Below, piece after piece: positions 502 to 36,196 of a stretch of 64,000 nt of DNA (the stretch's first letter is position 1; the number at the start of each line of letters is the position of its first letter). The notes under the pieces are model-generated. The model was not told where the DNA came from. It searched no databases and saw nothing but the letters and a program-made list of their open reading frames with translations. Origin of the DNA: Cyanidiococcus yangmingshanensis (taxonomy: Eukaryota > Rhodophyta > Bangiophyceae > Cyanidiales > Cyanidiaceae); the NCBI GenBank assembly GCA_013995675.1, contig VWRR01000003.1, positions 124,001-188,000 of the forward strand, in the 5' to 3' direction. Position numbers and translations under genes: made by a program.

Positions 502-2061
502 CAAGAGCGCGTTACTCACCAGGTATAAGATGCTCGAGTGCGAAAAGCGTACGTGAACGTTTATCTCGTTTGGGAAGACCAGCCCCTGTTCCAGTACGAG
601 ATACGCACCCAGTGTTGGTTGCTCTCGTGTCTCAGCAGTGCGCACATGCGGAGCATTTCGTGACGGATTGCGCACGCTCAACAGAGAACCGAACTGGACT
701 CGTCGTCGTCGTCGAGCCGCAGCGGCCGCGATCTCCATCGATTGGGGTCCCGGACATCAGCCACCCGTCCCGCTCATGCGTCCTCATCGATTTTTCGTAC
801 CATGTTTGCGGCATATCAGGACGAGCACTGAATCAGTATGATGAAATACGAGCATTGAAGAATGGGGCTTACTTGTTTAAAGCGCTCACGCGCACGGAAG
901 GTTTCAGGCATTTGACGCAAGACAAGTCATCATGGTGATACAAGGTTCGGCGAGCACGCACCTGGGTACCTTTCCCAGTATCAGTGTCAGCGCATGCAAC
1001 GATGTTCCGCCGAATAGGAATATACATGCAGCGAGTCGATGATTCCCGGCCGCCAGCATCTCGTACGGCTCATGCCGGTGCCGATGCGTCCAGCGAATCC
1101 ATCGATCTGGGACCGCCCGGCATCAGGATGAAATCACTTGTTCGCATCATCGCCTCGGCCAAATCGGTCGCGGACACCAGCTTAAGCAATCGTCGCTGCT
1201 GCTGACGGTTTCGAGAACCAGCACCGCCGCCCTTTGCATCGTTCCGGGTAGATTCGCACTCGTCGCCATGTCCTCGCGGGAGGCGCCCACGCACACACCG
1301 TTCTGACGCCCAGCAGATCGTGCACACGCTCGTCTCACAACCGGCGCCTGACAAGGTCCCCATCTGCCGTATCTGCTTCAATGACCACCGCATGCCACTG
1401 CATGCCATGGGAGAATGCCGTGGCGTGGCGTGGCGGTCGCCCCTGTCGTCGACAACGAGGCCCGGCCGATCGTCCGCTGACCGCCGCGGGGCGCGCCAAT
1501 CACACACGGCGCCGAGAGACACGGACATGCGGTCCCAGATTGGCGACGCGCATTCGCCCTCGGGAGGCGCCTGGGCGACGCTCCGGCCGACCGGAGACAG
1601 CACAGACACGCGCGCCGATCAGACCTCGTTTCCTGATCAGCGACAATCCTGTCCATACAGGGGGAGCAGCGTCGTCGTCGTCGTCGTCGACGATCGGATC
1701 GGATTGGTCCCAGGCGGTCGCTTTCGGAGGTTGCGCCACCATGCGCGATGGATGCGGCGAGTTACACGTTTGGTCGGTCGGCGGCGTCATCGTCCGTCCA
1801 TTCGTTCGTCGGTCCGTCTGGCTGTCGGCGGCCTCGTATTCGGGGCGGCCCGTCGAGCGCTCCCTCTTTCTCTCTGGAGTGTTCGGGTCGCGCTGCGCTT
1901 GTGCGTTTCGCCAGTTCCGAGCGGCGGTTTGGGCACACCCCATCCATCAGTGGTCACTTCTACCTTGAAGCTGTCTGAACGAGTGTGGCATTTTATCGGT
2001 GAAGGTTACTGTCAGGTTTTTAGGGCTTGTAACTGTTGGGGTCACTCGGGGCAACGTCAGC
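502..2061. other. intergenic region, no gene recognised
   Basis: About 1.5 kb with long open frames on both strands, none of which resembles a protein family or shows a convincing start. It contains short GTC/GAC trinucleotide runs near 700 and 1670-1690 and a low-complexity GGTCGGTCGG-like part near 1775-1830 just upstream of the next gene, which may be 5' leader or promoter sequence. Confidence 0.4.
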
Positions 2062-3947
2062 ATGAGTGGAGCAGGAAACCATAACAACGCGAGTTCGCGC
2101 GTGATCCGTGGGCCACGCGGCTCCTATGGAGCGTTTGGTGCACGAGCGTATGCGGAAGCTCCTGACCTGCCGTCGCGGCAGGTCCCTGGTGCTGTCTATG
2201 TCGATGAGGAGTTTCCAGCGCTGACGCGGACCGGCGGTTCGAGTGCGAGGACCAAACAGGGCGAGCGTGTTGTTGTCTCAGCGAAAATGCACTCGGCGCT
2301 TTCCTCGAGGTTTGGTGAGGGGGACCCTGCGGTGACGCAAGCGAGTTACTCCGGGGTCAATACGGTTGCACAGAACGCCGGGCCTGATTCAGCTGGTGTG
2401 AGCGCGTCGGGGGCGCCACCCGAGGGCTCGGCGCGGGTGCGTTCTGCGTTCTCACAGTCTGCGCCACAGCTTGGTGCATTCTATGCACCTGCCTCTTACA
2501 TGACGGCGATGAGTGAAATGACAGCAGGCGTGCCACCACACCACGAGGGAGCAGGGATGCCGTATGGGATTCGGATGGGCGAGCAGTTTTCCCAACCAAT
2601 CGGCGCCATGCCCCTTCTGAATGGCATGGGCACTGGTGGGCATCGAACACGACGGATGCGCAACGGACCACGTGCGGGCACCGGTGCTGTCGCAGCCCAT
2701 ATTGGCGAGGAGCTCGCAACCTGTACGTTACAAATTGAACTGAAACGCTTTTATTTCGATCTGCGAGCGAATGAACGAGGCCCTTTTCTGAAAATCGCTG
2801 AGGCTGAAGCCAAGGGCACTCGAAGCAAGATCATCATTCCTGCCTATGGACTTGCGCAATTCAAAGCATTCTCGATAACATGGTGGCCGAGGCAAAAAAA
2901 GAGCACCAGCCAGAGCAGCGCGTCGATGCCGGAAACCTGGCAACACCGGTGGCACCCGATACAAGCGAGACGCCAGTGCAACCCAGTTCAGATGCACCCT
3001 CCGAGGCAGACGGGGACGGCCAACGCGGCTCCGAGCTCTCCTCTGAGGACAACGATGGTTCGCTCAGTACACCACAGAAGGAGCGAGATGCAGCTCTGGC
3101 CGCGCTCGGAGCCGAGGCAGTGGCCTCTGGCACACCCCAAAGCGCAGTGATAGCGGGACAGCTGGTTGAGATCCCGGCAACTGGTCTACCAACGACGCTC
3201 GCGTCAGAGACAATGCGCATCGAAACCAAAAAGTACTACTTTGATCTGCTGAGCAACGCCAAGGGGCGATACCTGAAGATCTCGCAGAGTGCTGGTGGCA
3301 ACAAACGCAGCAGTATTGTTGTGCCAGCGACCGGTCTTGCAGCGGTTCGCGATTCTGTTCACGAGATGTGTCGCTACGCTGAAATGTCTCTGCAGCTCGC
3401 GGCCAATCCCAATATGATGCACTTTGCGCCCGGCACAGCGCCTGCGATCGCTTATCCCATGTTTGCACCGGCAACGGCACCGCCGGGTATGCCGTCAGGG
3501 CTCTATCCCTCGATGGGGCCGCCTCCACCGCCAGCAGCACCGACACAGGCCGCGCAACCAGCGCCTGCGCCTGCAACCGTCACAAACGCGCCCGTGGCAG
3601 ACGCTGCTGGGCCAACGCCCGCAGAGGACTTGGCGGCCATGGGGCACACCACGACAGCCAGCGCTGCTCCGGATGCAACCGCCACTCCTGTAGATGTGAA
3701 TGTGGCACTGACGAATATACCAGCATCTCTGGTACACGGGCCTGTGCAAATCCCGATCGATGAACAGCATAGCATCCACTTGCAACTCATCAACAGCGAG
3801 ACGAACGAGGAGAGCCAATCCCGAACGACCCATCTCGAGATCACCGACACAAAACGGCAACAGATTCGCTTACCCCTGAATAGCCTTGCCGCACTGCACG
3901 CAGTCCTGGGCGACTTGCTGCAAGCGACGGCAACGCATCATCTGTAA
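2062..3947 (+). CDS. PUR-alpha-like nucleic-acid-binding protein (frame break)
   Basis: Two PUR repeats are visible. The first, near 2740-2870, contains KRFYFDLRANERGPFLKI and ends in QFKAF; the second, near 3215-3370, contains KKYYFDLLSNAKGRYLKI. Both match the PUR-alpha signature (K-R-F-Y-x-D-v-K-x-N-x-x-G-R-F-L-K-I), a fold that binds purine-rich single-stranded DNA and RNA. A third, more diverged unit may lie near 3730-3930. Ala/Pro-rich linkers separate them. The start is the ATG at 2062; the N-terminal part carries EEFPAL. The frame changes at about 2871 in the middle of a repeat: one frame ends QFKAF and the next begins LDNMVAEAKK, a -1 (or +2) shift. Coding on both sides is otherwise continuous, so a sequence error is most likely. 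Confidence 0.78.
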
Positions 3948-4420: not shown

Positions 4421-4557
4421 ACTCGAACCCGCAACCTTTCGCTTAGGAGGCGAACGCGCTATCCATGAGGCGACAAAACACGGAAGGTTTCGTTTGCGCC
4501 AAAGGTGTTGGTCTCGCACCGCATGATAGGAATCATGGGACGGACACACCTCACGGG
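4421..4557 (-). tRNA. circularly permuted tRNA-Arg(CCU) with a D-loop intron
   Basis: Read on the minus strand, the 3' part comes first: T-stem strand CCCGT (4557-4553), acceptor strand GAGGTGT (4552-4546), discriminator G (4545). After a 36-nt spacer comes the 5' part: acceptor ACACCTT (4508-4502), TG, D-stem GCGC, intron, loop rest ATGGATA, D-stem GCGC (4459-4456), G, anticodon stem TTCGC, loop CTCCTAA (anticodon CCU, 4447-4445), stem GCGAA, variable AGGTT, T-stem GCGGG (4432-4428) and loop TTCGAGT ending at 4421. All stems pair: acceptor 7 bp (one G-U), D 4 bp, anticodon 5 bp, T 5 bp (one G-U). The intron (4494-4467, 28 nt) forms a canonical bulge-helix-bulge. Permuted tRNAs are established for C. 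merolae; this one is read directly from the sequence. CCA is not encoded. Confidence 0.9.
4467..4494 (-). other. 28-nt tRNA intron with bulge-helix-bulge motif
   Basis: On the minus strand GGCG (4500-4497) pairs with CGCC (4472-4469) as the 4-bp central helix; CAA (4496-4494) and TCA (4468-4466) are the two 3-nt bulges on opposite strands; ACGAAAC (4493-4487) pairs with GTTTTGT (4479-4473) as the inner helix around a CTTCCGT loop. Cutting between bulge bases 2 and 3, as tRNA splicing endonuclease does, yields a D-loop of AATGGATA, the normal loop of this tRNA type. Confidence 0.88.
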
Positions 4558-6347: not shown

Positions 6348-8656
6348 TCACTTTCCGTACTCGGCGCGCAGCGCTTTCGCAACCGCTACCATGTTGGCGA
6401 GCGATTCCATGACTTCTGGCCACCCGCGAGTCTTCAAGCCGCAATCCGGATTCACCCAGAGCCGCTGGACGGGAATGTAACGAGCGGCTGCGCGGAGAAG
6501 CTCAGCGATTTCCTCCTTGCTGGGCACTCGGGGAGAATGGATGTCGTAGACGCCAGGGCCGATCTCGTTCGGGTACTCAAAACGCTGAAACACCTCAAGC
6601 AGCTCCATGCGCGAGCGCGATGACTCGATCGAGATGACATCAGCATCCAGCGCTGCAATCGCCTCAATGATCTCGTTGAACTCGGCGTAACACATGTGCG
6701 TGTGGATCTGTGTGCTTGGTGCTGCGCCACCAGCTGCCAGTCGGAACGCGTCCACAGCCCATTTGAGGTACGCATCTCGTTGCGACGATTTCAAAGGCAG
6801 ACCCTCACGCAGTGCAGGCTCATCAATTTGAATCACATGAATGCCTGCTGCCTCCAGGTCACTGACCTCATTGCGTAGCGCGAGCGCAATCTGGAAGGCC
6901 GTGTCCGAGCGCGGCTGGTCATCACGCACGAACGACCATTGGAGGATGGTCACCGGGCCCGTGAGCATGCCTTTCATTGGACGCTGAGTCAAGGATTGAG
7001 CAAAGCGACTCCAATCGACCGTCATCGGTGCTGGTCGGGATACGTCTCCGTAGATAATGGGCGGCTTCACCCCACGAGAGCCGTAGCTCTGTACCCAGCC
7101 ATTTTCGGTGAAAGCGAACCCTTCCAAGAGTTCACCAAAGTACTCCACCATGTCGTTGCGCTCTGGCTCTCCATGCACCAAAACATCAAGATCCAACTCA
7201 GTCTGTTTCTGCACCACCTGCCGGATTTCGGTCTGCATCGCATTGGACGTAATCCTTCTCGGATATCTTGCCGTTCTTGAACTGACGCCGCACGGAACGA
7301 ATCTCGGATGTCTGCGGGAACGAACCGATCGTCGTCGTCGGTAACAGAGGCAAATTCAGTTTCTCCCGTTGTGCTTGCGCTCGAGCGGCATATGGCTGCG
7401 AGCGACGTTTCATGGCATCGGTAATATTCGCCATTCGGTTTCGTACCAATGGATTCCGTGTTCGTGGCGAGTTACGGCGCGATTCCACCGCCTTGGAATT
7501 CTCCTCCAGATACGCTTGTGTTGCATCTGGTCCCGAGACCAAGGCCTGTCTCAACGCGTGAATTTCCTCCAGTTTCTGTACGGAAAAGGCCAACCAGGAC
7601 TTGAGCTCCTCATCCAGGCGCGTCTCGTTTTTCAAGTCCACTGGTGTGTGCAGCAACGAGCAGCTGGGCGCTAGCCAGAGCTGCTCGCCGCGCTCTTTAT
7701 ACAGCGGCTGCAGCCTCTTTAACGCGTGGCTCAGGTCAGTCCGCCAGATATTGCGTCCATCGACGATGCCGACGGAGAGGACCCGATCCTCTGGCCATTG
7801 TCGATGCACTTTCTCCACTTGTTCAGGGGCGCGCACAACATCGATATGCAGGCCTTGCACAGGTAGCCCAGCCACTACATCAAGATTCTCCAGAATACCC
7901 CCAAAATACGTCGCCAAAAGCAGTTTGCGTGAGTCACGCGCGTCCGCCAAGGAGCGATAGGTTTCTGAGAAGGCCTCGCGCCACGCCTGTGGCAGGTCCA
8001 GCGCCAAGATCGGCTCGTCCAGTTGCACCCATTCCACGCGCGCAGTCCAGCGTCTTGATGACCTCTTGATACACAGGCACAAGGCTACTGAGCAACGACA
8101 GACGATCAAAGTCCTTTCCAGCGCTCTTCGAGAGCCAGAGGAACGTGAGCGGCCCCAGCAGCACCGGTTTCACGCGGTACCCTGCAGAGAGCGCCTCCTG
8201 CGTCTCGTCAAACACTTTTCGGGACGATAAAGCAAAACGCTGATTTTCCTCCAACTCCGGAACGATGTAGTGATAGTTTGTATCGAACCACTTGGTCATT
8301 TCACAGGCAGCCACGTCGGCTTTCGCCGCCGCCCCGACCTGACTGCGCCCGCGAGCCATCCGAAAGTAAGTGTCTAGATCGCCACCTTGCGCCGCCTTTT
8401 CACCGTCATGAAAACGCGCTGGAACAACACCTAGCATCGCACTAGCATCAAGCACGTGATCGTAGAAAGAGAAATCATTAACCGTGATCAGATCGAGACC
8501 AGCACGTGCCTCTGTGGACCATTGAGCCTCGCGAATCAACTTTCCAGCCTGCAGCAGCTCCGCCTTTGAGGACTTACCACTCCAAAAACGTTCAAGTGCT
8601 TGTTTTAGCTCACGATGAGCTCCAAACCGAGGAAATCCAAGCGTGTGCACGATCAT
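6348..8656 (-). CDS. metE: cobalamin-independent methionine synthase MetE (two frame breaks)
   Basis: Transfers a methyl group from methyltetrahydrofolate polyglutamate to homocysteine, forming methionine. Starting at the ATG at 8656 the protein opens [18 protein letters not shown], the usual MetE N-terminus. Further landmarks are [27 protein letters not shown] at the start of the catalytic domain, [19 protein letters not shown], and zinc-site regions THMCYAEF (His and Cys ligands) and [13 protein letters not shown] (second Cys) near the C-terminus. The total length, about 770 aa, is normal. Two +1 frame changes interrupt it, near 8041-8044 (just before RVEWVQ) and near 7239-7242 (just before MQTEIRQ); the pieces together cover the whole family without loss. 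A GTC repeat tract lies upstream. Confidence 0.92.
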
Positions 8657-8728
8657 CGTAGCCAACCTTGAGTACTAAAAGCGAGCACGTTAACGCGTGA
8701 ACGCTACGAAGCCTTCTTGAGACGAATA

Positions 8729-33450: not shown

Positions 33451-34506
33451 TTAATGGGAAAACCAGGTTCCGACGTCCATACTTGGGGCTCGCTTCACAA
33501 CAGGTGCACTCGTTCCCGCTGGCGCCCTGAAGCTGTTCGGTTTCGAAAGGCGCACCGCAACCTCTCTCGTCACGAGAGACAGTTTTCTTCGTACAGAACC
33601 GTAGGGCCTAAACCGTTCGTGGCGCTCGTTGCTGGGAGCTTTGGATGATTTTCTCCGACAGGTGACTGTCTTTCTGGACATGACAGCGTACCGAAGATGC
33701 ACTTGGTCTGCTTTTAGCACAAGTTTGTAGGAGATTCGGCGCCTGACTCGGCGTTCGGCTACAGTGACGTGTTCAGGGACTCAGCACAAGCGTCCAGGAG
33801 GGCAAACTTCCACTCACTTCATCAAACTAGATAAATGCCCATCCATGCGGTATATGGCGTAACCTACTCGACTAGGAAGGAAAGAGACGTTGTCGAGTGA
33901 GGTCAAAAAGGATCCTTCGCAGCGCACTGACTTGTACGTGCGTCCGCAGAGTGGCGTTCACGCTGGTTTAGACGCTCTGACGCAGCACCTGAGGGCCACT
34001 TGTGTGCACCAGTGTACTAGAAACGCACTCTGTGTCTACCAAGGTGGCGGCCGTTCCGAGCTTCATGGCGTCTATGCATCGCAGCGGTTGCACTATGACG
34101 CTCCCTAGTATGCGGATTCGAAGGCATCGCGTGCTGTTCTTCTTCATCATCCCGTCATCAGGTGTCCGTCGACGGCGTTTGATCACGAACGCTCTGGGAC
34201 TCTGTTCGGTGCGAGCAATCGGGAACTGCCAGCACCAGCACATTCGGCGGGACGCTCGTGCTGAACCAACGATTATCACAAAGCGTTCGAGCCACCAAGG
34301 TTGGAGCCAGCACGCTTCGCTGAGTTGCTCAACCCGAAAAAAACATGAACCAGATGACCACAGTTTCGCATTGCTCTCGTCACGCTCCTAGGGAACAAGC
34401 GCTTTTCATATGGATCTCAGATGTGCGGACCTGTCCGGGGAAGGAATCACCTACTCCATTCACATCCGTGACACTGAGCCTTCGTCGCCTTTTTTGGACG
34501 GTGGTG
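33451..34506. other. spacer with possible unresolved coding
   Basis: Plus-strand pieces near 33893-34110 (DALTQHLRATCVHQC) and 34265-34345 (FEPPRLEPARFAELLNPKK) look coding but are separated by stops in all frames and match no family I know. They could belong to one small gene with frame changes. I do not annotate a CDS. Confidence 0.25.
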
Positions 34507-36196
34507 TCAGGGATGCAAGCGTTTGGGATCGCGGGGGAATATCGCACATTCGCGAACGTTCCCAATACCTAGATAGAGCATCACAACGCGTTCGAGGCCG
34601 ATACCAGCGCCACCGTGCGGAAACACGCCGTATTGGAAAGCTTCCAAATAGTTCTGCAACGGTCTCCAGATTGATGCCTTTGTGAAGCGCGCGTCGCGTC
34701 AAGAGCTCGACATCGTGGATACGTTGAGCACCGGAGACAATTTCCTCCCCACGCATGAATATATCGAAAGCGTTGCTATACCGAGGGTCATCAGCCGCTG
34801 GCATCGTGTAGAAGGGGCGGCAGTCGGCAGGATAACGATCAATGACATAAAAGTCGGTCTCGTATCGTTTTCGAATGATCTCACCGAGAGTTTTCTCCTG
34901 TTCGCTCGTAAAGTCCGACAAGTCCGACATCTCCAGGCCATGTTCGCGCAGCATCTCTATAGCCTCTCTGTGACTGAGCCGCAACCACTGATCTCGACGA
35001 TAGCCGAGCGGCCGAAATGGATACTGGCGCTGAACACAAGCGAGCTCCTCTCGGTAGCGCTGTTCTAGGCCTTCAAAGATGTACAGGAACAGCCGTTCTA
35101 GAACGTCGAGAATCTCGTGATAGCTCTCCTGAATCTCCATCTCGATATCCATGCTGATGAACTCAGTAAGGTGTCGATACGTATTCGATTTCTCTGCGCG
35201 AAAAACTGGACCGACTTCAAATACGCGTCGCATATCCCCACAAATAGCCATTTGCTTGTACAGCTGTGGTGATTGCGCCAGACATGCATCCTCTTCAAAG
35301 AATTTCAAGCGAAAAACTTCAGCACCGCCTTCGCTTGTTCCACTAATGATCTTTGGGGTGTGAATTTCAGTAAAACCATTCCGGACAAGCCATTCTCGAA
35401 ACAGCGTCGAAACGCCAGACTGCAACCGGATAATGGCTTGATGTGCCGGCACCCGCAAATCCATGAAGCGATGATCTAGTCGGGTGTCTCGGTGTACGTG
35501 CGGCCCCTCTTCTTCCGGCCTTCGACCGGCATCCTCGACCTCAAATGGAAGCGGGACTTGCGCCTTGCTCACGACATACAAGCGTTTGGCTCGGATCTCG
35601 ACCTCGCGCTGCGTGCACGACTTGACTTGGGCCGGTACCACAGCCCCGCAGATATCGACGACACTCTCAGGGGTCACTTCACCTGAGCGCACAAGCCATC
35701 GCACCATTTCACGGGAGACACCAGTCTCCGAGTCGGCTGCGAACACTATCTGAACGGTGGCGTACTGATGGCGAAGGACCACAAAGGCCACCTTGGACCC
35801 CTGTGGGCGAATCGTGTGAACACGTCCCCGCAGCCACACCTCCTCAGCGTTCGCGCAAGCTGGATGGGCTGCGTCCAGTGCACCGACCTCAACCCAGAGA
35901 CGCCGACTAGAGTCTGCGTCGTTGGCTCGAGTTAACGCAGCTACATCGTAGCGAGCAAAGGCGGGGCTGCTCTCGTCCACGCGCAGCGTGTGCATCAGTG
36001 TCGCCGCAGCCACGACATCGCTACAAGTTATGGAAGATTCTTCCGATTTTGATTGCTTCTTTGCTGCTTTTTCAAGCTCTTTCTGTCGTTTCTTCTCCTC
36101 CTTGTACCAGCATCGTTCCTCCTCGGTCCATTCCGCGCGCGGAATATGCTCCTCCAGTTTCTGGCGCACGGACTCTGCTAACCGAGCGTCTTCCAT
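34507..36196 (-). CDS. aspartyl-tRNA synthetase, eukaryotic cytosolic type (frame break)
   Basis: Charges tRNA-Asp. From the ATG at 36196: a charged N-terminal helix, the OB-fold anticodon domain ([20 protein letters not shown]), [20 protein letters not shown] at the hinge, [20 protein letters not shown] (substrate-binding loop), motif 2 [18 protein letters not shown], and [10 protein letters not shown] with H-x-G-x-N-L-E-T. The final motif 3 region, [18 protein letters not shown] followed by [10 protein letters not shown], is in another frame after a +1 change near 34640-34645 and stops at 34507. This puts the whole class II catalytic core within the gene. It belongs to the archaeal/eukaryotic rather than bacterial type (no GAD insertion). 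Confidence 0.92.

Follow-up and report, generated by a model that had tools for sequence, protein, structure and literature searches.

On the minus strand of a 64-kb stretch of DNA from Cyanidiococcus yangmingshanensis (hereafter the window), the pieces of a tRNA-Arg(CCU) are found in an unusual order, with the 3' part of the tRNA lying upstream of its 5' part and an insert interrupting the D-loop. This raises the question whether these pieces represent a gene at all and, if so, how a tRNA could be made from them. The analysis described here leads to the view that the locus is very probably a nuclear tRNA-Arg(CCU) gene that is circularly permuted (type IV, 59/60) and interrupted by a bulge-helix-bulge (BHB) intron at position 14/15, most likely the ortholog of Arg(CCT) in Cyanidioschyzon merolae.

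Layout of the locus

A preliminary description of this DNA had reported a 3' part, a 36-nt gap and then a 5' part on the minus strand, and its positions held almost to the base. The 3' part (4558-4545; this and all other features of the locus lie on the minus strand) has the sequence TCCCGTGAGGTGTG and comprises T60, the T-stem 3' strand CCCGT, the acceptor 3' strand GAGGTGT, and the discriminator G73. It is followed by an intervening spacer of 36 nt (4544-4509), which in the precursor connects the 3' acceptor end to the 5' one. The 5' part starts with exon 1 (4508-4495, ACACCTTTGGCGCA, tRNA positions 1-14), continues with an intron of 28 nt in the D-loop (4494-4467), and is completed by exon 2 (4466-4422, positions 15-59), which contains the anticodon CCT and ends with TTCGAG. 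A leader (4570-4559) precedes the gene and a trailer (4421-4392) follows it. The join between the two parts can be written as 59/60 or 60/61, as T4558 and T4421 are interchangeable.

Several protein-coding genes in the neighbourhood are broken into pieces. MetE (6348-8665, minus strand) extends over three overlapping frames and ribosomal protein L1 (4607-5492, plus strand) over two, with abutting domain matches in both cases, and PurA (1999-3947, plus strand) is divided between two overlapping frames, with 34 profile positions missing between the domain matches. These split frames probably reflect indel errors in the local assembly. An AspRS-like open reading frame was seen at 34460-36196 of the window; in a search with 8000 candidates scored, 90% of its protein aligned at 97% identity with one from C. 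yangmingshanensis.

The joined tRNA

All stems had been said to pair once the parts are reordered. Indeed, with the insert left out and the parts in tRNA order, the resulting 73 nt folded into a perfect cloverleaf with stems of 7, 4, 5, and 5 bp and the anticodon CCT, and ARAGORN identified the joined 73-mer as tRNA-Arg(cct). Consensus elements, namely U8, A14/A15, G18G19, U33, and TTC, were recognised from the ARAGORN output and the fold. No tRNA was found by ARAGORN in the unjoined 241 nt of the locus, and over the whole window none was reported either by ARAGORN or by Rfam at gathering scores, which is expected because the gene is permuted and carries an intron in the D-arm.

The frequency with which such an arrangement arises by chance was estimated by a scan of both strands, in which GTTCRA, T8, and T33 were obligatory, the T and acceptor stems had to be free of mismatches, and at most one mismatch each was tolerated in the D and anticodon stems, with G-U pairs allowed, a D-loop of 7-54 nt, and a spacer of 5-79 nt. 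G18G19, the intron motif and the promoter were ignored. The locus was the sole match in the window, and 150 Markov-resampled windows gave one match in total.

The D-loop intron

The insert had been described as containing a canonical BHB motif. The helix GGCG/CGCC with the bulges CAA and TCA and an intron stem of about 7 bp can be drawn at a position outside 37/38, and in the minimum-energy fold of the 35-nt core this helix, the intron stem, and the bulge CAA on the 5' side all reappeared, with 18 of 1000 shuffled sequences folding equally well or better. The 3' bulge TCA follows CGCC. The outer exon helix beyond TCA is weak and comprised only 2 bp when 54 nt were folded. BHB motifs are cut after the second bulge base, which places the intron at 14/15. 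Two open reading frames in the genome scored over the cut-off for the tRNA-intron endonuclease domain PF01974.

Alternative ways of reading the insert were also considered. A 5' part starting inside the insert was rejected by eye, as it left an acceptor mismatch and no good D-stem. ARAGORN, when given the join with the intron kept, returned a shifted 76-nt call beginning within the intron, which was treated as spurious, and in covariance models stretches of the insert stood in for the genuine acceptor and D-arm parts. The intron parse was preferred because pairing is then complete throughout and the intron position of C. merolae is matched. Within the intron, AAACCTT is similar to the ACACCTT of the acceptor strand, and TGTCGCC to the TGGCGC at the start of the D-arm; this likeness of intron to exon is possibly due to chance or possibly the trace of a duplication.

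The T-loop junction and folding of the precursor

At the T-loop junction, where no clean BHB had been recognised, the motif is imperfect, yet a relaxed version, with its cut exactly at 59/60, can be drawn. By the cleavage rule, this cut is set by the bulges AG/T (after TTCG) and CA/T (before CCCGT), the latter belonging to a candidate half-motif CGGC-CA/T in the leader (4564-4558). The central helix TTCG/CGGC, drawn by eye, has three of four pairs (one is G-U), and no outer helix lies next to it. The three pairs changed the computed energy by only -0.2 kcal/mol, or by +0.1 when the leader/trailer helix was present.

This second helix is formed by CAGCGC-C-GG in the leader (4570-4562) and CC-A-GCGCTG in the trailer (4407-4399, with GCGCTG at 4404-4399) and consists of 8 bp with one mismatch. 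The duplex had an energy of -14.2 kcal/mol, and 2 of 1000 shuffles were as good. Since 14 trailer nucleotides (4421-4408) stay unpaired next to the junction, the pairing does not amount to a canonical BHB. It was assessed within a set of 19 units, four permuted and 15 conventional, in which the loci L016, L019, and L021 were entered as permuted and two irregular ones (L017 and L020) of the 20 RF00005 matches described below were excluded. Among the permuted genes, only Arg stood out, being equalled by 2 of 1000 shuffles as against 103 for Lys, 471 for Ala, and 128 for iMet, and the 15 conventional units ranged from 96 to 994 of 1000. These values do not support the idea that permuted genes are in general marked by leader/trailer pairing, and at the Arg locus, after 19 tests, such pairing is suggestive and not a proof.

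Folded without constraints, the 181-nt precursor reached -60.5 and kept the intron and anticodon stems while the T-stem was lost; with the cloverleaf stems enforced, the value was -57.5. One could imagine that the junction of pre-tRNA-Arg(CCU) is no longer a canonical BHB and that its ends are instead held together by the 8-bp leader/trailer helix with its one mismatch, a long loop on one side lying between this helix and the cut, so that the endonuclease would circularise the RNA via a strongly relaxed motif. This proposal is considered rather doubtful.

Promoter and terminator

Upstream of the 3' part lies a TATA-like tRNA promoter element, TATATATGGATTTGG (4600-4586), which starts 42 nt upstream and thus within about 50 bp of the tRNA. 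It was the single match in the window when TATATANNNATTTGG was searched with at most one mismatch, with 0.02 matches expected. In the genome, TTTATA or TATATA, often followed by ATTT, occurred at most 140 nt upstream in 18 of the 20 tRNA matches. For the conventional loci this was the case in 13 of 15, and in 11 of these 13 the element started 33-60 nt upstream. The upstream element of tRNAs in this genome is frequently CTTTATATACCAATTTG or close to it, and TATATATGGATTTGG is similar. A composite element consisting of TTTATATA, about 3 nt, and ATTT was seen upstream of many of the tRNA loci (L002-L021). A search for the TFIIIC subunit Tau95 (PF09734) gave no match in the genome, nor in any of the control genomes, and is therefore uninformative.

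Downstream of tRNA-Arg(CCU), no TTTT run was found within 60 nt, where only the interrupted stretch TTTCTTT (4398-4392, at the end of the trailer) is located. Such a run was present at most 60 nt downstream of 18 of the 20 tRNA matches of the genome.

tRNA genes elsewhere in the genome

The genome surveyed comprises 12.07 Mb on 20 contigs. Searched with Rfam RF00005, it yielded 20 matches, 18 of them over the cut-off, with 63 of 292 candidates scored; the number is a lower bound. A second, conventional tRNA-Arg(CCU) gene had been named beforehand as part of an observation that would speak against the permuted gene. No such gene came to light: ARAGORN called 14 of the 20 matches and none as CCT, a CCT anticodon was not seen by eye in the six remaining ones (of which L014 was not firmly assigned), and the joined Arg sequence found only its own two pieces in the genome at E≤10, again a lower bound. 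These searches leave room for a diverged or disrupted second copy.

Further permuted tRNA genes were recognised on three other contigs by reading the flanks of RF00005 matches by eye, each around positions 1400-1600 of the respective locus: Lys(TTT) of type IV with a 38-nt spacer (L016), Ala(TGC) of type IV with an 8-nt spacer (L019), and iMet(CAT) of type III with a 21-nt spacer (L021). All three were accepted by ARAGORN when joined, and the free folds of joined Ala(TGC) and of the iMet T-arm were not those of a cloverleaf. Two other loci look further disrupted. L017 (1501-1573, minus strand) resembles Pro(CGG), but by eye its anticodon is followed by what looks like an intron and the surrounding sequence lacks a normal acceptor stem, and L020 (1501-1567, plus strand) resembles Glu(TTC) with a D-arm that is irregular by eye; ARAGORN reported Ser(aga) with a 42-nt intron at the latter.

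A covariance model in permuted order (R3), built from eight ordinary tRNAs, was run over 21 sources and gave 16 matches at E≤10. Ala ranked first with 66.4 bits and with its true 3' part placed. Lys came second with 57.8 bits, a wrong piece of the spacer being taken as the 3' part, and an ordinary Lys(CTT) locus, itself part of the model, was third at 51 bits. The Arg window scored 29.3 bits, and its true 3' part was not placed. R3 thus supports Ala alone and is uninformative for Lys and Arg.

Comparison with known permuted genes

In C. merolae, Arg(CCT) is listed as a type IV gene (59/60) with a 23-bp spacer and a 27-bp intron of the form hBHBh' at 14/15 (PMC3978253, Table 1). It shares with the locus described here the isoacceptor, the type IV 59/60 junction, and a BHB-class intron at 14/15, and differs from it, by the same table, in the spacer (23 versus 36 nt) and the intron (27 versus 28 nt) and in being listed as hBHBh', whereas the outer exon helix is weak here. 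Orthology of the two genes is probable, as judged from the architecture only, which for C. merolae is known from table entries. The original reports behind the C. merolae entry are said to be Soma 2007 and Soma 2013.

The genes for Lys(TTT), Ala(TGC), and iMet(CAT) are of types IV, IV, and III in C. merolae as well; according to the entries, the spacers of Lys (38) and Ala (8) have the same length in both genomes and that of iMet differs (21 nt here versus 74), and a D-loop intron is absent from all three in both genomes. As stated in Soma 2014 (PMC3978253), most C. merolae permuted genes have a TATA-like element at most 50 bp upstream, and such an element is present here, too. Outside the red algae, Table 1 of the same paper lists iMet(CAT) and Tyr(GTA) of Thermofilum pendens as combining a type IV 59/60 permutation with an intron in one gene. 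These differ in being archaeal, with an intron at 37/38 and an encoded CCA, and no sequence relation is claimed.

The preliminary description had also implied that permutation and intron in one gene were a novelty. This does not hold, as four such genes, Arg(CCT) among them, are published for C. merolae (PMC3978253). The architecture of tRNA-Arg(CCU) is already known from there, and the locus described here is the counterpart in a sister genus. For Cyanidiococcus itself, no report on permuted tRNA genes was found in the freely accessible papers searched; in a 2026 paper on the species (PMC13353863), 'permuted tRNA' occurs once, within the references.

Proposed maturation

By analogy to C. merolae, where permuted pre-tRNAs mature through a circular intermediate (PMC3978253), tRNA-Arg(CCU) probably also matures via a circular RNA. 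A single linear transcript would start from the upstream TATA element, and the tRNA-splicing endonuclease would cut both the BHB motif of the intron and the one to which leader and trailer contribute at the T-loop. Ligation would then yield a circular pre-tRNA, the acceptor end of which may be freed of the 36-nt spacer by RNase P and tRNase Z before CCA is added. The intron motif is the more stable one and would probably be processed first, as in Gly(CCC) of C. merolae, for which the same source describes processing of the intron motif before that of the termini.

Weighing the alternatives

A permuted gene whose D-loop carries a BHB-type intron, as put forward in the preliminary description, is supported by the cloverleaf of the joined parts and by the lack of a CCT gene elsewhere in the survey. 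It is favoured because the joined tRNA is perfect, the raw order is empty, and the randomised windows gave one match in 150; because C. merolae Arg(CCT) agrees in isoacceptor, junction, and intron position; because the promoter is unique in the window and like that of the genome's other tRNA genes; and because three more permuted genes match C. merolae types and two PF01974 open reading frames are present. The weak junction helix, the weak outer helix of the intron, the missing T4 run, the loss of the T-stem in the free fold, and the misplacement of the 3' part by R3 were counted against it.

Some of these points would suit a degenerate relic, that is, a formerly working permuted gene that is no longer transcribed or processed after decay of its junction motif and terminator, with AGG being read by tRNA-Arg(UCU). 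The junction helix is imperfect, no T4 terminator lies within 60 nt, and a UCU anticodon is in principle able to read AGG. However, a decaying gene would be expected to have lost some pairs, whereas the joined tRNA is intact in every stem, and the BHB core of the intron and the promoter element have been preserved as well, so that a relic is very unlikely. An assembly artefact, in which a local inversion or duplication makes a normal gene look permuted, might be suspected from the split frames of the neighbouring MetE, L1, and PurA and the indel errors they suggest. Yet indel errors do not swap the halves of a gene, and the permuted genes for Lys, Ala, and iMet, located on three further contigs, together with the C. 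merolae counterparts listed in PMC3978253, indicate that permutation is biological in this lineage; an artefact is highly improbable. That complementary pieces came to lie side by side by chance, without there being a gene, has a negligible probability: random windows do yield about one such arrangement in 150, but G18G19, the promoter element, and the intron BHB are all there although the scan did not demand them, and the same arrangement is published for the same isoacceptor in C. merolae (PMC3978253, Table 1).

Significance

With the permuted tRNA-Arg(CCU) gene and its intron, a second genus is now seen to have a doubly disrupted tRNA gene and, besides it, at least three more permuted ones. 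This suggests that both the permutations and the D-loop intron arose before Cyanidioschyzon and Cyanidiococcus diverged and have persisted since then. As C. yangmingshanensis can be transformed and crossed, according to PMC13353863, it offers a second host for genetic tests of whether permutation is needed and of the limits of the junction motif.
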